Below, piece by piece: positions 57,625-64,000 of a stretch of DNA of 64,000 bases. This DNA comes from Lichenibacterium ramalinae (GTDB lineage: Bacteria > Pseudomonadota > Alphaproteobacteria > Rhizobiales > Beijerinckiaceae). Under the pieces are notes generated by a model. It had not been told where the DNA came from. It worked only from the letters and a program-made list of their open reading frames with translations, and ran no database searches. Location of the stretch: NCBI RefSeq assembly GCF_004137085.1, contig NZ_QYBC01000012.1:124001-188000 (forward strand), given 5' to 3'. Position numbers and translations under genes: made by a program. How positions within the stretch are numbered: position 1 is the stretch's first letter; every line of letters begins with the position of its first letter.

Positions 57625-57664
57625 AAGCGCCGGGACGCCTCGCGACACTGTGCGGCCTCCCGTG

Positions 57665-58726
57665 ATGGAACCCATGCCGCAGCCGACATCATCCCTGCCC
57701 GCCCTCGCCCTCGCCGCCGCACTCCTCGGCCCGGCGATCCCCGCCCGGGCGGCGGAGCGGGTCGACGTGCCGGTGCACCTGACGGTGCTGCCGGACGGCG
57801 ACCCGCGCTATTCCGTGCCCGTCACGGTCGGCGGCGGCCCGCCGGTCGAGGCCGAGCTCGACACCGGCTCCTTCGGGCTGCGGGTGCTGAAGGGCGCCCT
57901 GGAGCCCGGCCGGTACCAGGCCACGACGCAGCACCGCAGCTACGCCTTCGGCGGCGGCGCCAAGTTCGACGGCGTCCTGGCCCGCGCCGTGGTGGGCATC
58001 GGGCCGGCGCTGACGGGCGCGCCGGTGCTGTTCCACCTCGTCGAGCGCGTCGCCTGCGCCGAGGGCAGGCCCGAATGCGCGGCCGCCAAGGTCAAGCCCG
58101 AGGACTACCGCATCGCCGGCGACGGCATCCCGGGGCAGGGCTTCCAGGCCATCCTGGGCCTGTCGCTGCGCCGGGCGGCCAGCGACGACAGCGCCCAGAA
58201 CCCGCTGACCGCCGCCGGCCCCCGCAGCTGGATCCTGACGCTCCCGCGGCCGGGCAGCGCGGAGCCGGGCCACCTCATCATCGACCCCGACGAGACCGAC
58301 CGCGCCGGCTTCGCCCTCGTCAAGCTGAGCCCCCAGGCCGACCTGTCGAGCCACCTCGCCGGCTGGGCCGATGCCGCGCTGGCGGGCTGCCTCGTCGAGG
58401 ACGGGGGCGAGCGCTTCTGCGGCCGCACCCTGCTCGACAGCGGCGCGCCCGGCCTGTCGGTCGCCACCGACACGGTCGGGGGCCCGAAGCCCTGGGGCGC
58501 GGGGCGCAAGGCCAGGATCGAGATCGGCGGCGCCGACGGTCCGCTGAGCGTGCCCTTCACGTCGGGCGCCGATTACGCCAGCCGCGTGCTGCTGCACCCG
58601 CGGCGCGGGCCGGAGGGGAGCGCCGAGATCAGCGTCGGATCGCTGCCCTACCTGTCCTACGCGGTGCTCTACGACGCCGAAGCCGGCACGATGGGCTTCA
58701 AGCGGCGTGACCCCGCGGGGCCGTGA
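57665..58726 (+). CDS. Exported pepsin-like (bilobed aspartic protease-like) protein
   Basis: A 353-residue protein with a Sec-type signal (LPALALAAALLGPAIPARAA). Two aspartic-protease motifs are visible: AELDTGSFGLRV with Asp66 and TLLDSGAPGLSV with Asp258. Between them, GFQAILGLSL matches the pepsin GILGLG element. The arrangement of two lobes in one chain is that of pepsin-family A1, which is uncommon in bacteria. Four cysteines (131, 138, 242, 252) could form disulfides. Activity is not proven. ATG 57665 is chosen; ATG 57674 is possible. Confidence 0.75.
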   Translation: MEPMPQPTSSLPALALAAALLGPAIPARAAERVDVPVHLTVLPDGDPRYSVPVTVGGGPPVEAELDTGSFGLRVLKGALEPGRYQATTQHRSYAFGGGAKFDGVLARAVVGIGPALTGAPVLFHLVERVACAEGRPECAAAKVKPEDYRIAGDGIPGQGFQAILGLSLRRAASDDSAQNPLTAAGPRSWILTLPRPGSAEPGHLIIDPDETDRAGFALVKLSPQADLSSHLAGWADAALAGCLVEDGGERFCGRTLLDSGAPGLSVATDTVGGPKPWGAGRKARIEIGGADGPLSVPFTSGADYASRVLLHPRRGPEGSAEISVGSLPYLSYAVLYDAEAGTMGFKRRDPAGP

Positions 58727-58786
58727 GCCGGGGCTCCGAATTCCCGCCCGCGACCCTGTCCGAGTGGATCCCGCGCGCCCCGCCCC

Positions 58787-59251
58787 TTAATGGGCGTGGA
58801 AGCGGTCGAGTTCGGCCTGGGCCAGGGCGCGGTTGGTGCGCTCCAGGCGGAAGGCCAGGACGCGCATCATGGCGATGCCCATGTCGGGGAAGCTCTTCAG
58901 CAGCCCCATGAGCTGGGTCTTGCCGATGACCAGCGTTTCGCAGGACGTCGCCGCCGTGACGGTGGCGGAGCGGGGCCGGTCGCACAGGATGGCCATGTCG
59001 CCGATGAAGTCGTTGCGGCCCACGGTGGCGACCTTCACCTCCGTGTCGCCCGCCTTGACGAAGACGTCGGCCGATCCCTTGACGATGACGAAGGCGCGGT
59101 CGCCGACTTCGCCCTCGTTGCAGAGCACCTGCCCGGCGTCGAACTTCAGGCGCTGGGACGCGAAGGCGAGGAGCTTCAGCTTCGACGGGTCGACGGAGGC
59201 GAAGATCGGGACCTCGCGCAGAACCTCGACGTCTTCCTTCAACAGGCTCAC
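58787..59251 (-). CDS. Small cyclic-nucleotide-binding domain protein (Crp-like sensor without HTH)
   Basis: A 154-residue single cNMP-binding domain: LREVPIFASVDPSKLKLLAF, DAGQVLCNEGEVGDRAFVIV, then the phosphate-binding cassette FIGDMAILCDRPRSATVTA with Gly84, Asp85 and Arg94, then a C-terminal helix (IAMMRVLAFRLERTNRALAQ). No DNA-binding domain follows, so it must act on a partner. It is encoded 67 bp downstream of the ABC-like protein and shares its direction, making that protein the likely target. GTG 59251 behind GGGGGAA is the start. Confidence 0.88.
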   Translation of the reverse strand: MSLLKEDVEVLREVPIFASVDPSKLKLLAFASQRLKFDAGQVLCNEGEVGDRAFVIVKGSADVFVKAGDTEVKVATVGRNDFIGDMAILCDRPRSATVTAATSCETLVIGKTQLMGLLKSFPDMGIAMMRVLAFRLERTNRALAQAELDRFHAH

Positions 59252-59318
59252 GGCTCGTTCCCCCTGACCTTTCGAGAGCCCGCGGTGAGGCTCGCATCTC
59301 GGACCCGGCGCGCGTCGG

Positions 59319-62030
59319 TCACGCGGAAGCGCGCATCGGCTCTCGCTCGTCCTGGCGGGGGACGCCCTCGGCGTCGCCTTGGGCCGAGTCCGACGCGACC
59401 CTGCCGTTCTCCATCTGGACCACGCGATCGAAGTGGTGTGCCAAGCCCTCGTTTTCCAGGTTCCACAGGATGCCGAAGCCCGGCCGGTCCGCCGCATCCC
59501 CCCGGCTCGCCGCCACGATGCGGCCCACGATGGCGTCCTGGCTGGCGGGGTCGAGCTGCATCAGCCCGCGGTGCACCAGCAGCAGGTCGGGCCGGCGCAG
59601 CAGCGCCCGCGCCATGGCGAGCTTCTGGCGCTGGGCGGCGCCCAGGCGCTTGCCGCCCGAGCCGATGTTGAAGGACAGGCCGGTGTGGAACACGATGGGG
59701 CGCAGGCCGAGTTCGTCGATCGTGGCCCGCACGGCGGCCGCCACCCGCGACTCGGCCTCGGCGATGCCGAAGGCGACGCGGCCCATGAGGACGTTGTCCT
59801 TCACGCTGGCGGCCTCGTTGTAGAGGTCGGGGTGGTAGAAGGCGATGGATTGCTGGTCCTCGCCGAGCGCGTCGTAGAAGGCGCGGCGGGCGTCGAGCAG
59901 GCTCAGTTCGAGGTCGCCGGTGAGCAGGCCCAGGCGGTCGCGCGGCTCGATGTAGCCGAAGGCGAGGTCGAGGAACACGGCCTGGTCGCCCGAGGCCGCC
60001 TTGGCGAAGCCGCGCGAGCCGACGCGCTTCAGCGCCGCCTGGTAGTCGGCGAACTGGTCGGGCGCCATGAGGCTCAGCTGCTCGAACAGCGGGCTGTCCG
60101 CTTCGAGCCCGTCGAAGACTTCGAGGATCGTCGAGGCGATGTCCTTGCCCATGGCGAAGAGCGCGGCGTCGAGCTGGTGCTCGGCCAGGACCTGGCGGAC
60201 GATCGGGTTCGAGCCGAGCTGGCGAAGGCTGAACGTGTCGTCGAGCGGGGTGCCGAAGATCAGGTTCTCGCCGATCGTCGACTGCGAATTGTAGTGTTCG
60301 GGGTCGAAGGGCTCGACGAGCCCCGTCATGCCGGCGGCGTCGAGCTTCTCGCGCAGGATGCCGCGCGCCTCGACGAAGCGCTCGGCCGCCTCGTCCCACA
60401 TCTCGGAGATGCGGCGGTTCAGGCCGAAGGCCAGGATGTCGTGTTCGAGGTCGACCATCACCAGCGCGTCGCGCATGCGCTCGCCGAGGTCCTCGAGCCC
60501 GGTGGCGCCGGCGGCCTCGTAGTCGATCCAATCGGCCGCGACGTCGAGGTTGTTGCCGCGCGACTTGATGATGTCGTAGCGGCCCGGGGCGCCGGGCGGG
60601 CGCCGCGTGTGGCGGATGCCGAACAGCATGGCCTCCTCGATCGTCCCCTGCGGGAAGAAGGTGTCGACCCCGGCGAAGGAGATGCGCCGGCCCGTCAGGG
60701 CGACGGGCAGGTCTTTCAGGTCCGTCTCGCCGATGGTGACGCGGCCGCCGTCGAGGACCTGCAGCCGGGCCAGGACCTCGACGATCGTCTCGGAGCCGCT
60801 GCTCGTCCCGCCCTCGAGCGCCACCACGTCGCCCACGCCCATGCGGAAGGTGGCGTTGTCGAGCAGCCGCGTGCCGTTGCTGTCCGCCACCGTGGCGTTG
60901 GACAGCGCCACCTCGCCGGCGAGATGGGGCAGGGGCTCGTCGGCATCCGGCGGAGGCAGCAGCTCCACCGCCGGATCGACCGAGAACTGCTCGATGATCT
61001 GCTCGTATTTCACCTCGACGTCGAGCCGCTGCTGGTCCCAGTCGATGAGGTCCTTCACCGGCGACGGCAGGTCCTTGTAGGCCGAGATCACCGCCACGAG
61101 CTGGCCGATGTTCAGCGTCCCCATGATGGCGAGGAACCCCCCCACCATGTAGAACAGGAAGGGCGTGATCTGCGCCAGCAGGTTGTTCAGGAACTTGACG
61201 AAGAACTTGCGCTGGTAGAGCTCGAACCGGATGCCGAAGATCTTGACGAGCCGGCTGGCGAGGTCGGCCCGCTGGAAGTCCGAGGCGTCGTTGGTGTGCA
61301 CCGCCGTGATGCCGTCGACGATCTCCCCGACGACGCCGGCGAGGGCGCGCGATTCCAGCTGGCGCTGGCGGCCGAGGATCAGCTGCCGGCGCCGGAGCCG
61401 CGGGATGACGAGGCCCTGCACGACCAGAAGCGTGATGGCGATGAGCCCGAGGAACGGGTTCTGCACCAGGATGAAGACGATGGCGGTGGCGATCTGGCCG
61501 AGGAGGAACACGGGCTGCACGATGGCGTCGCCGATGAAGCCGCCGAGCGGTTCCACCTCGTCGCGGATCATGGTGGCGACCTCGGCGCCCTTGACGCGCC
61601 GGAACTCGCTCAAGGGAAAGCGCAGCACCCGGTCCATCAGCTCGTAGCGGAACTGCCCGAGCATGCGCTCGCCGAGCCGCCCCTTGTAGAAATTGATGTA
61701 GTACTTGAACAGCCCGTTGATGATGACCAGCAGTAGGAAGGCCCCGGACAGCATCACCAGCGACCAGATCCGGTCGAGGTCGAAGCCGTGCAGCACCTCG
61801 ACGAAGCCTTCGCGCTTCAACGCGGCGGGGACCGGGATCTTCAGCTGGAAATAATGCTGGGTGGCGCCTGCGGTCTCGAAGCCCTTGGCCTGGATGGGGC
61901 CGTTGACGATGTATTTCGGGAGGTCCAGCATGAGGAAGCTGAACGGCATCGAGGCCAGGATGATGAACAGGATCCAGATCTGCTCACGCCGGGTCTCGTT
62001 CCAGATATAGCGGAAGAGGCTGGCCTCCAT
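59319..62030 (-). CDS. Degenerate ABC-exporter-like protein (pseudo-ATPase) with a large NBD insert
   Basis: A 903-residue membrane protein. Residues about 15-330 form a type-1 ABC exporter membrane domain (six segments). The nucleotide-binding domain starts near 370, but Walker A is altered (GGTSSGSET, residues 408-415; no Lys), Walker B reads LLLVHRG (His and Arg replace Asp and Glu), and the switch His region reads ILWNLEN. A signature-like SGGKRLGAAQRQKLAMARAL is at about 791-810. Between Q-loop and signature lies about 320 residues of extra sequence with repeated motifs. ATG 62030 is preferred to 62057. ATP hydrolysis is unlikely; a regulatory or scaffold role is inferred. Confidence 0.85.
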   Translation of the reverse strand: MEASLFRYIWNETRREQIWILFIILASMPFSFLMLDLPKYIVNGPIQAKGFETAGATQHYFQLKIPVPAALKREGFVEVLHGFDLDRIWSLVMLSGAFLLLVIINGLFKYYINFYKGRLGERMLGQFRYELMDRVLRFPLSEFRRVKGAEVATMIRDEVEPLGGFIGDAIVQPVFLLGQIATAIVFILVQNPFLGLIAITLLVVQGLVIPRLRRRQLILGRQRQLESRALAGVVGEIVDGITAVHTNDASDFQRADLASRLVKIFGIRFELYQRKFFVKFLNNLLAQITPFLFYMVGGFLAIMGTLNIGQLVAVISAYKDLPSPVKDLIDWDQQRLDVEVKYEQIIEQFSVDPAVELLPPPDADEPLPHLAGEVALSNATVADSNGTRLLDNATFRMGVGDVVALEGGTSSGSETIVEVLARLQVLDGGRVTIGETDLKDLPVALTGRRISFAGVDTFFPQGTIEEAMLFGIRHTRRPPGAPGRYDIIKSRGNNLDVAADWIDYEAAGATGLEDLGERMRDALVMVDLEHDILAFGLNRRISEMWDEAAERFVEARGILREKLDAAGMTGLVEPFDPEHYNSQSTIGENLIFGTPLDDTFSLRQLGSNPIVRQVLAEHQLDAALFAMGKDIASTILEVFDGLEADSPLFEQLSLMAPDQFADYQAALKRVGSRGFAKAASGDQAVFLDLAFGYIEPRDRLGLLTGDLELSLLDARRAFYDALGEDQQSIAFYHPDLYNEAASVKDNVLMGRVAFGIAEAESRVAAAVRATIDELGLRPIVFHTGLSFNIGSGGKRLGAAQRQKLAMARALLRRPDLLLVHRGLMQLDPASQDAIVGRIVAASRGDAADRPGFGILWNLENEGLAHHFDRVVQMENGRVASDSAQGDAEGVPRQDEREPMRASA

Positions 62031-62187
62031 GCCGTGCTTCGCTCCGGCCCGGCGCATCGTGCCGGGAAACAGGTGTGGGCCGGCATGAGCCGAACCCTGC
62101 CATCATCGGCCCAAGTGCCGTCCAGGGCAAGCGCCGTGTGGGCGGGGTTCGGCTCCGAACTCGGGTTGGCGTGGAACCGTCGGAGCG

Positions 62188-62339
62188 CCCTTCTCCCGCT
62201 GGCGGGAGAAGGTGGCGCCGCGCAGCGGCGTCGGATGAGGGTGGGGAGCCCCGCCCATCGTCGGTGCATTGACGCTTCGTGGCGTTCAGCACCCCTCATC
62301 CGGCGCTTCGCGCCACCTTCTCCCCACAGGGGAGAAGGG
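62188..62339. repeat. Convergent pair of REP-like palindromic elements
   Basis: Left copy 62188-62246 contains CCCTTCTCCC-GCTGGC-GGGAGAAGG, then GTGGCGC and GGATGAGGG. The right copy 62292-62339 is the same element inverted (CCCTCATCC ... CCACCTTCTCCCC-ACA-GGGGAGAAGGG). Such dispersed elements are common in Hyphomicrobiales intergenic DNA. They fill most of the 389 bp gap between the ABC-like gene and the glycosyltransferase gene; nothing else was seen there. Confidence 0.85.
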
Positions 62340-62419
62340 CGAAGCGGCGCCGTTGACCTGAATTCGGAGCCTTGGGGCGGGAGGGCCGGTTCGGCCCGAC
62401 CCCGTCGACCCGATCCTCG

Positions 62420-63565
62420 TCAACCCATGCCGAGCCGGCGCTCCACGGCGAGCCGCGTGAAGGTCGCGCCGTCGAGCGACGGCCCCGCTTCGGGCGGTGG
62501 CATGTCGAGCGCCCGGTCGACCGCCCGGGCGAGCCCGGCGGGGTCGAGCGCCGCCTCGTCCACCACCACGGCGAGGCCGCGGGCTTCCAGCAGCGCCGCC
62601 CGCCGCGCCTGCTCGGTCTCGCCACCCTCGGCATAGGGCACCAGGACGGCGCGGCAGCGCGCCGCCACGAGGTCCGCCACCGTGTTGTAGCCGGCCTGGG
62701 AGATGGACACCTGCGCCCGGGCCAGCCGCGCGGCGAGGTCCGGGACGAAGGCCCGCACCGTGACGCCGCCGTCGCGGTCCGGCGGCGCGGGCAGGTCCGC
62801 CGCATTGGGGCCGGCGAGCACCAGCCAGCGCGCCCCGGCCAGGCGCGTGAGCGGGCGGGCCGCCAGCGCGGCCGCGAGCAGCCTCGCCCCGACCGCGCCC
62901 CCGCCGACCGACACCACGACGTCGAAGACCTCGTCGTCGGGCGGCGGCACGGGGCCGTGCAGCAGCCCCTCGTGGCGGGGCCCCACCAGCCCCGTATAGG
63001 CGATGAGGTCGGCGATCTCGGCGGCCTCGGGAAAGGACGCGGAAAGCGGGGCGAGGCGCGGGTCGCCGTGGACCAGCACGAGGCCGATGTAGCGGCGGAT
63101 CAGGTCCAACGTTTCCGCGCGGCGCTCGGGCCGGGCCTCCTGCAGGATGTCGCGCACCGAGCAGGCGATGAGCGGGCGATGGGCGGCCGCGACGGCGCGC
63201 TCCAGCAGCGGGATCAGTTCGAAGCGCATGGCCCGCCGGCCGAACGGGAAGGCTTCGACCAGCACCACCTCGGGCACGAACGCGTCGAAGCAGCCCAGCA
63301 GCAGGTCGCGGCGCTCCGCCTTGTCCTGCGGCCCGAAGGGGCGCCCGTCGGGGTGGACGAGCGACGAGAAGCCTGCCGGCCCCGCCTTCACCGGCGGCAG
63401 CACGAAGAGGCTGATGCCGTCGGGCAGGAGCCCGGGCGGCAGTTCGCCCCCCACCACGAGCAGCACCTCGAAGCTGTCCGCCAGGGCGGCGGCGATGCGG
63501 CCCGCCCGGACGAGGTGGCCGATGCCGAGCAGGTGCTGGACGTAGAACAGGACGCGGGTCTGCAT
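62420..63565 (-). CDS. MurG-like glycosyltransferase (GT28-type)
   Basis: A 381-residue GT-B fold enzyme. The N-terminus VLFYVQHLLGIGHLVRAGRI has the Gly-rich entry loop and His of GT28/MurG-like proteins, and the C-terminal domain has VVVSVGGGAVGARLL and the acceptor/donor loop SISQAGYNTVADLVAARCRA, with VPYAEGGETEQARRAALLEA binding the nucleotide sugar. It is probably not MurG itself, as the sequence around the signatures differs. It is followed on the same strand (upstream in map order) by a second glycosyltransferase, suggesting a surface-polysaccharide locus. Confidence 0.85.
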   Translation of the reverse strand: MQTRVLFYVQHLLGIGHLVRAGRIAAALADSFEVLLVVGGELPPGLLPDGISLFVLPPVKAGPAGFSSLVHPDGRPFGPQDKAERRDLLLGCFDAFVPEVVLVEAFPFGRRAMRFELIPLLERAVAAAHRPLIACSVRDILQEARPERRAETLDLIRRYIGLVLVHGDPRLAPLSASFPEAAEIADLIAYTGLVGPRHEGLLHGPVPPPDDEVFDVVVSVGGGAVGARLLAAALAARPLTRLAGARWLVLAGPNAADLPAPPDRDGGVTVRAFVPDLAARLARAQVSISQAGYNTVADLVAARCRAVLVPYAEGGETEQARRAALLEARGLAVVVDEAALDPAGLARAVDRALDMPPPEAGPSLDGATFTRLAVERRLGMG

Positions 63566-63572
63566 CGGCGGG

Positions 63573-64000
63573 CTATTCGGCCGCGGCCGGCGCGGCGTCC
63601 CGGGCCGGGACCTCGCCGAAATAGCCCGCCAGCGTGTCGAGGCTGGCGGCGGAATCGAAGTCGCGTGCGACGCGCGCCTGCCCGGCCCGCCCCAGGGCGC
63701 GGCGCCGGTCGGGATCGCCGATCAGCGCCAGGAGGGCCCCCGCCAGGGCTTCGGGATCGTCGGGGGGCACGAGGCGGCCGTTGACGCCGTCGCCGATCAG
63801 CTCGGGCACGCCGCCGACCGCGGTCGACACGCAGGCGAGGCCCTGGCTCTGGGCTTCCACCAGCACGTTGGGCAGGCCGTCGCGATCGCCGTCGCCCGCC
63901 ACCCGGCAGGGCAGGGCGAAGAGGTCGGCGGCCCGGTATTCGGCGAGGACGGCGGCCTGGTCGCGCGGGCCCAGCCAGGCGATCCGGCCGGCGATGCCGT
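63573..64000 (-). CDS. Glycosyltransferase family 1/4 (5' end cut by window edge)
   Basis: The visible 141 residues are the C-terminal part of a GT-B enzyme: GRIAWLGPRDQAAVLAEYRA, ADLFALPCRVAGDGDRDGLP, then NVLVEAQSQGLACVSTAVGG, VPELIGDGVNGRLVPPDDPE. The E-x7-E-type motif (DGLPNVLVEAQ) is intact. The gene continues beyond base 64000, so its start and acceptor domain are not seen. It lies 7 bp upstream of the MurG-like gene in the same operon. Confidence 0.88.
   Translation of the reverse strand, partial: GIAGRIAWLGPRDQAAVLAEYRAADLFALPCRVAGDGDRDGLPNVLVEAQSQGLACVSTAVGGVPELIGDGVNGRLVPPDDPEALAGALLALIGDPDRRRALGRAGQARVARDFDSAASLDTLAGYFGEVPARDAAPAAAE

Follow-up and report, generated by a model that had tools for sequence, protein, structure and literature searches.

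The transmembrane domain (TMD) fold and the overall layout of type IV ATP-binding cassette (ABC) exporters such as MsbA, PglK, PCAT1, TmrAB, and P-glycoprotein are shared by a protein, here called the pseudo-ABC protein, that is encoded in a 64,000-nucleotide stretch of Lichenibacterium ramalinae DNA (contig NZ_QYBC01000012.1, positions 124,001 to 188,000; hereafter, the window). It differs from these exporters in its eroded ATP-site motifs, in an insertion of ~290 amino acids carrying two extra Q-loop modules within the nucleotide-binding domain (NBD), and in a near-constant partner, a cyclic-nucleotide-binding (CNB) protein encoded by the next gene. CFTR and SUR are ABC exporters with a non-pumping output and a degenerate ATP site; both still bind ATP and have no CNB partner. 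Their likeness to the pseudo-ABC protein would lie in a non-classical output and the degenerate ATP site.

The CNB fold and phosphate-binding cassette of that partner are those of CRP/Clr, of the CNB-gated channels SthK and MloK1, and of the PKA and PKG regulatory subunits, from all of which it differs in standing alone with an ABC-fold partner and in having no helix-turn-helix (HTH), channel, or kinase domain. Its CNB domain is also matched by the NCBIfam model TIGR03896 (cyc_nuc_ocin, bacteriocin-transport-associated), which is named for its association with export operons, yet the window protein scores 46.6 bits against a cut-off of 161.05 bits and has 154 amino acids against the 317 positions of the model. 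Members of TIGR03896 contain a CNB domain and have a cyanobacterial distribution, and their associated ABC protein is an active NHLP exporter.

Among described exporters carrying a CNB-type domain, the closest that we found is HetC of Nostoc, in which that domain is needed for function (PMC10986499). HetC differs from the proteins in the window in its N-terminal CNB domain, its peptidase domain, and its essential catalytic Glu (Arg in the window), and its CNB domain bound ppGpp, not cyclic AMP (cAMP), in the tests reported there. No description of the pseudo-ABC/CNB unit was found in the open-access literature, including the accessible parts of PMC6180224, PMC10945364, and PMC5498481; it is a real and widespread module, undescribed as far as that literature shows. 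A preliminary description of the locus, made from the sequence alone, had interpreted it as a cyclic nucleotide controlling a membrane pseudo-transporter; its observations are confirmed here, and its interpretation is partly supported. Our preferred reading, which we rate at about an even chance, is that the two genes encode one membrane device in which the pseudo-ABC protein handles a glycan or glycolipid and has its state set by a cyclic nucleotide instead of by ATP hydrolysis.

A conserved two-gene unit

The two genes lie on the same strand of the window, as follows.

59319 to 62030, minus strand: pseudo-ABC exporter gene; the reading frame is open from 62057, and the family-supported start at 62030 gives ~903 amino acids
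58787 to 59251, minus strand: stand-alone CNB protein, 154 amino acids from a GTG start, with a CNB fold, a long C-helix, and no HTH

Both open reading frames (ORFs) are present as first drawn, and the start at 62030 agrees with the family consensus MExxLFRYIW in an alignment of relatives; residue numbers given below for the pseudo-ABC protein are nonetheless counted from the ATG at 62057. The genome has a single copy of the gene, the remaining matches being partial and 20 to 39% identical with at most 48.5 bits, and Lichenibacterium minor carries a protein that is 87% identical.

Conservation of the pair was assessed in 80 genome_contigs loci, the best-scoring of at least 544, and in 120 whole-genome loci that include the window (L199) and were chosen for spread among the positives of genome searches. 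The two sets share four loci (196 distinct among 200), and flanks of 6 kb on both sides were present for 171 of the 200. In 79 of the 80, the pseudo-ABC gene is followed on its own strand by a CNB gene whose end lies no more than 1.2 kb from the ABC end, the exception (L179) being a contig end; of the 120, 104 have it adjacent and 15 as a fusion, and only L303 truly lacks it. A CNB partner is thereby found at 198 of 200 loci (183 just downstream and 15 as C-terminal fusions; 194 of the 196 distinct), and the conserved order and orientation that the preliminary description had proposed as a check hold in 79/80 and 119/120 loci. In the fusions, of which L216 and L283 are examples and which are distributed over several branches of the tree, the CNB domain directly follows the pseudo-NBD with almost no linker. 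Across 297 genomes of the order, the ABC gene occurs in 94, a CNB gene of at least 190 bits in 83, and both in 79 (hypergeometric P ~5e-51, relatedness ignored). The pseudo-ABC and CNB genes recur together far more often than chance would give and are a conserved two-gene unit.

Erosion of the ATP site

The motifs of the ATP site are degenerate in the window protein, as listed here.

60789 to 60812, minus strand: eroded Walker A, GGTSSGSE (residues 416-423; K to S, S/T to E)
59625 to 59645, minus strand: half-kept signature, LGAAQRQ (residues 805-811; LGAAQ in place of LSGGQ)
59550 to 59585, minus strand: eroded Walker B, LLLVHRGLMQLD (residues 825-836; LLLVHRG, with D to H and E to R; D-loop LD retained)
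59451 to 59471, minus strand: H-switch region without His, ILWNLEN (residues 863-869; WNLENE)

The reported absence of the Walker A Lys, Walker B Asp, catalytic Glu, and switch His is borne out by these segments: the window protein has neither the Walker A pattern GxxxxGK[ST], nor the Walker B Asp plus catalytic Glu (HR instead), nor the LSGGQ of an active MsbA-like exporter. To place it within its family, five catalytic residues (Walker A K and S/T, Walker B D and E, and the H-switch H) were scored in a 246-row alignment, obtained from 305 rows by removing identical 120-amino-acid centres, fragments, and weak matches; it leans to Hyphomicrobiales and is not fully dereplicated (rows L216, L079, and L089 are one gene). 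Of the 246 rows, 54 keep the Walker A Lys, 59 the Walker B Asp, 47 the catalytic Glu, and 25 the H-switch His. None of the five remains in 125 rows, the window included, which makes the degeneracy a trait of the family; the second commonest state (26 rows) retains S/T and D, with K and E gone. Full motifs are scarce (GxxxxGK[ST] in 8 rows, Walker B DE in 9, and L[ST]GGQ in 7). The signature-like segment, previously described as kept, is so in half only, and with the signature half-lost too, erosion affects both sides of the composite ATP site.

Homologues with an intact site are very rare. All five residues occur in one row (L289), and Walker A and Walker B DE are both complete in four rows representing two genes, one of which (rows L216, L079, and L089) has no H-switch His. 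Viewed as an evolutionary series, the family extends from members whose ATP sites are almost intact (L289, L216) to members in which the site is completely eroded. A tree of the TMD, rooted at its midpoint and weak at several nodes, scatters the members that keep K or E over several branches; of the 141 rows in the large clade that includes the window, 111 retain none of the five residues. Repeated erosion of the ATP site within the family would be the simplest reading of this tree.

Comparison with five congeners gave whole-gene dN/dS (nonsynonymous-to-synonymous substitution rate ratio) values of 0.23, 0.25, 0.25, 0.26, and 0.36. By region, dN/dS was 0.18 to 0.25 in the TMD, which had the lowest value in 3 of the five comparisons, and 0.26 to 0.63 in the Walker A half, which had the highest in 4. 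These ratios indicate that the gene is under purifying selection and is not dying. A dead exporter copy beside an unrelated CRP-like fragment, whether a decayed allele or an accident of annotation, is therefore highly improbable, even though the window copy lacks all five residues: the dN/dS values, the family-wide residue census, and the co-occurrence with CNB genes, 15 of them by fusion, refute the idea of a decayed allele of an active family, and the fusions together with a separate, high-scoring CNB group led us to reject the CNB gene as a stray CRP fragment.

ATP may still matter to this protein, through binding without hydrolysis, through slow or unconventional ATPase activity, or through an unlinked intact half-transporter partner, the CNB protein then modulating an ordinary ATP-driven glycolipid flippase. 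We regard this as rather unlikely, since half of the rows, the window among them, have lost all five residues and complete Walker A, Walker B, and signature motifs are as scarce as noted above, although the D-loop Asp is present in 180 of 246 rows, a K..E pattern in 15, S/T with D in 26, all five residues in L289, and Walker A and B in the gene of L216, L079, and L089. HetC, with a CNB domain on an exporter that has an essential ATPase residue (PMC10986499), is a precedent in favor of a role for ATP, whereas no intact exporter gene lies beside loci L119 to L318. Only two weak TMD matches came from the search of those loci, one being a fragmentary member of the same family, and a heterodimer with a neighboring intact exporter was rejected on that basis; an unlinked partner may exist.

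The predicted cyclic-nucleotide site

The only Pfam family found in the 154-amino-acid CNB protein is cNMP_binding (6.1e-20), and it thus has no HTH, in agreement with the original observation; it stops after the C-helix, where CRP/FNR transcription factors have their C-terminal HTH. Its predicted structure (mean predicted local distance difference test [pLDDT] score, 91.6) has CRP/GlxR, PKA, PKG, and MloK1 as the closest folds, and Pfam and the model agree in assigning it a CNB fold and a phosphate-binding cassette of the G-E...R type.

58958 to 59008, minus strand: phosphate-binding cassette, FIGDMAILCDRPRSATV (CNB residues 82-98)

The cassette had been called intact, which holds overall except that the usual Glu is Asp in the window. 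Among 184 unfused rows, Gly is present in 184, Arg in 182, and Glu or Asp in 182 (Glu in 170 and Asp in 12), and the residue after the cassette Arg is Thr in 164 and Ser in the window. Thr at this position occurs in cyclic GMP (cGMP)-type sites and is not decisive for the ligand. All 15 fused CNB domains keep Gly, 14 keep Glu or Asp, and 13 keep Arg, their cassettes being otherwise looser. The predicted cyclic-nucleotide site has thus been conserved, in contrast to the ATP site, which has been lost.

Domain architecture and an insertion in the NBD

The membrane half is exporter-like, as had been described, with agreement among Pfam, a profile comparison with the PDB, and Foldseek. In Pfam, the pseudo-ABC protein matched ABC_membrane (2.3e-15), the family of the exporter TMD, and a weak, split ABC_tran, and only these general models exceeded their cut-offs. 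MsbA was the top NCBIfam profile, at 122.7 bits against a cut-off of 602 bits, and among the best 25 of 122 NCBIfam families the protein scored below the cut-off of every one. No peptidase family, such as the peptidase C39 of HetC/PCAT-type exporters, appeared among Pfam matches at E ≤ 10. An AlphaFold model (mean pLDDT, 81.6; mostly 85 to 95 in the NBD and lower in the TMD) is predicted to keep the exporter layout, and the 50 Foldseek matches listed for it were all ABC exporters of this class or ABCC relatives, with PCAT1 first.

60984 to 62024, minus strand: type IV (MsbA/ABCB-like) TMD (residues 12-358), with a small, predicted beta-strand insertion, probably periplasmic, between the first two transmembrane helices (TM1 and TM2)
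60588 to 60695, minus strand: first Q-loop module (residues 455-490), with no Gln at the Q position
59715 to 60593, minus strand: ~290-amino-acid insertion relative to solved ABC exporters (residues 489-781)
60138 to 60380, minus strand: second Q-loop/helical module, FDPEHYNSQSTIGENLIFG (residues 560-640)
59658 to 59903, minus strand: third Q-loop/helical module, YHPDLYNEAASVKDNVLMG (residues 719-800)

In the family alignment, conservation is highest over residues 91 to 360, and the TMD has many invariant charged and polar residues. When a profile built from 50 relatives was compared with solved chains in the PDB, the matches were exporters of this class or ABCC relatives; the best stretches of the 60 chains listed fell within residues 87-488 or 751-911 and none spanned 489-750, an arrangement that puts the insertion after the first Q-loop region and ahead of the signature. 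The preliminary description had not noted this insertion. Profile comparison with hhalign matched the second module to the third (probability 99%, E ~1e-18) and the first to the third (probability 92%, E 7.5e-7), and on these matches the NBD contains three copies of a Q-loop/helical module; the first and second aligned over only 21 columns, an overlap that the segments share by construction. To our knowledge, no such three-fold arrangement is known in an NBD.

Glycosyltransferases, cyclases, and other neighbors

Upstream of the pseudo-ABC gene, on the same strand, lie genes for glycosyltransferases.

62420 to 63565, minus strand: GT28-like glycosyltransferase (Glyco_tran_28_C), a member of the conserved cassette
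63573 to 64000, minus strand: GT4-type glycosyltransferase, extending past the window edge

Transcription on the minus strand thus runs from the GT4-type through the GT28-like glycosyltransferase to the pseudo-ABC and CNB genes, and beyond the window a second GT28-like gene comes after the GT4-type gene on the contig. Both glycosyltransferase types occur within 6 kb, in the same operon or divergent, at 54/80 and 86/120 loci (140/200; 136/196 distinct). This recurring neighborhood is what would be expected if the pseudo-ABC protein were a membrane signaling scaffold instead of a transporter, its exporter fold sensing a lipid or a signal from the envelope and acting jointly with the CNB protein to position or switch the neighboring glycosyltransferases; ABC proteins that act as regulators, such as the sulfonylurea receptors, do exist. 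We nevertheless think such a scaffold quite improbable, as the TMD is the best conserved part and has the many invariant charged and polar residues expected of a translocation path, and as in 49 of 200 loci neither type of glycosyltransferase was found within 10 kb, to the extent that flanks were available, whereas the CNB partner is missing in only 2.

Class III cyclases also recur, within 6 kb at 28/80 and 36/120 loci (64/200; 62/196 distinct), against an expectation of ~3% of loci from Guanylate_cyc gene numbers in 51 genomes. These genomes, of rhizobia and relatives, have 2 to 37 class III cyclases each; at 32 loci for which the genome's cyclase count is known, 20 have a nearby cyclase where 0.96 would be expected. 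The neighbors were found with a home-made profile and the background with Pfam, and 8/8 neighbors checked exceeded the Pfam cut-off. Extending the range to 10 kb gives 97 cyclase ORFs at 76/200 loci; 80 of them are on the same strand and 30 have a ferredoxin domain. Class IIIb ferredoxin-linked cyclases with a cytochrome-b-like six-helix anchor are known from alpha- and betaproteobacteria (PMC4821796). Cyclases with a 2Fe-2S ferredoxin domain stand beside the module at 13275-14942 of L129, 7891-9579 of L162, 6584-8296 of L168, and 15930-17627 of L192, which suggests a redox or respiratory input to the module.

A gene with a metallo-beta-lactamase (MBL) fold occurs within 10 kb at 42/80 and 29/120 loci, and in many loci it follows the CNB gene (11204-12055 in L040, and relatives). 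A representative protein scored 74 bits with RNase Z models and 37.5 of 400 bits with a cyclic-nucleotide phosphodiesterase model; because all of these matches are below cut-off, participation in messenger breakdown is no more than a lead. An oligopeptide-type ABC importer recurs as well (substrate-binding gene within 10 kb at 50/80 and 27/120 loci), as do UDP-glucose dehydrogenase (17 loci) and DUF3095 genes (15 loci).

Distribution and a second subfamily

The ABC gene of the module was detected at E ≤ 1e-30 in 98/289 genomes of a class-level sample and in 26/299 genomes of a phylum-level sample, only one of which, a partial match in G675, was marked as outside the class. Relatives are carried by 263 plasmid records, mostly from Rhizobium and Sinorhizobium, and viral contigs gave 4 pattern matches and no relative. 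The ortholog on pSymB of S. meliloti 1021 (L319; 841723-844435) is in a genetically tractable strain; SMb20813, possibly the same gene, is termed the msbA homologue of S. meliloti in PMC10945364.

A second pseudo-ABC subfamily was counted, from match rows, in 36 genomes of the window's family, the matches covering only approximately residues 515 to 910 in 34 of them and more in two (G218 and G998). Four members (L081, L082, L083, and L085) share the repeated Q-loop modules and have a strongly diverged TMD; the ~1.3- to 1.5-kb flanks of these four ORFs contain no CNB gene. A CNB gene at E ≤ 1e-45 is nonetheless present in 36/36 genomes with the second subfamily, which fits, and does not prove, that the CNB protein may serve a pseudo-ABC protein encoded elsewhere.

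Proposed mechanism

The worn ATP site, the CNB partner, and the glycan-gene neighborhood suggest a surface-glycan device that is messenger-controlled and not ATP-driven. For ligand binding, the physical complex, the absence of ATP hydrolysis, the substrate, and the direction, what follows is what we infer. The pseudo-ABC protein would probably be homodimeric and shaped like a type IV ABC exporter, with an NBD that is no ordinary ATPase and is enlarged by two extra Q-loop/helical modules. The CNB protein would bind a cyclic nucleotide (cAMP or cGMP), supplied by nearby class III cyclases, some of the ferredoxin type, and would dock at the C-terminal end of the pseudo-NBD, where the natural fusions carry it covalently. 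Binding or release of the messenger could then move the pseudo-NBD, and the coupling helices would pass this movement on to the TMD and change its conformation, so that the open or closed state is set by a second messenger instead of ATP hydrolysis. The cargo or client would most likely be a glycan or glycolipid made by the adjacent GT28-like and GT4 glycosyltransferases.

The main argument for messenger control is the contrast in conservation, with the messenger site kept, the ATP site lost, and the TMD most conserved of all. The main counter-argument is that some members retain much of the ATP site, so that ATP is perhaps still bound in part of the family: a minority keeps the Walker A Lys and Walker B Glu, and these rows, like those with S/T and D and the complete L289, may still bind or hydrolyze ATP. 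Several other observations also weigh against the proposal. CNB domains do not always bind cyclic nucleotides, as the ppGpp result for HetC indicates (PMC10986499), and the fused CNB domains, with Arg in 13/15, are less well kept than the separate ones. Locus L303 (G403) has the ABC gene and no CNB gene nearby, by a relaxed search and by its downstream genes. Fifteen of the 94 ABC-positive genomes have no CNB gene of 190 bits; 12 of the 15 have a weaker one (122 to 169 bits), some of these fused, and G046, G279, and G287 have none at E ≤ 1e-25, G287 having a weak match (41.8 bits) beside its ABC gene (L075). Conversely, seven of the 36 genomes with the second subfamily (G117, G174, G196, G272, G958, G972, and G985, the last with a partial first-subfamily match) have a CNB gene without a full-length ABC gene of the first subfamily, and in G117, the one checked, no ABC gene lies in the 6 kb examined around the CNB gene. 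As to the messenger supply, 136/200 loci have no cyclase within 6 kb, and none is found in the 20 kb around the window copy, of which only ~4 kb are upstream of the ABC gene.

A more specific form of the messenger-controlled device can be put forward tentatively, and we hold it to be possible without favoring it: a cyclic-nucleotide-gated ABC-type protein in which ATP has been given up and the pseudo-NBD, with its repeated Q-loop module, has become the lever for a CNB-gated glycan or glycolipid path. If this gated form is true, the module and its neighboring cyclases would make up a complete second-messenger circuit acting on a translocator and not on transcription. If messenger control is right in either form, cargo movement and ATP burning would have been separated in a natural family found across a bacterial class, with a second messenger as the control input, and many class III cyclases of rhizobia and relatives would gain a direct, non-transcriptional target.

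Additional features of the loci

In L303, the gene after the ABC gene resembles, by eye, a glycerophosphodiester phosphodiesterase. In the window, a consensus scan of 58700-62450 for promoters and terminators found no site. The convergent neighbor at 57650-58726 on the plus strand gave weak matches, both below cut-off, to PE-PGRS C-terminal aspartyl-peptidase-like and DUF3443 models. Between the GT28-like and pseudo-ABC genes (62170-62350) lies an interspersed palindromic repeat of ~180 bp, which we take to resemble the RIME-type elements of Rhizobiales; it has 63 matches in the same genome, comprising six further near-full copies, one long partial copy, and many short ones.

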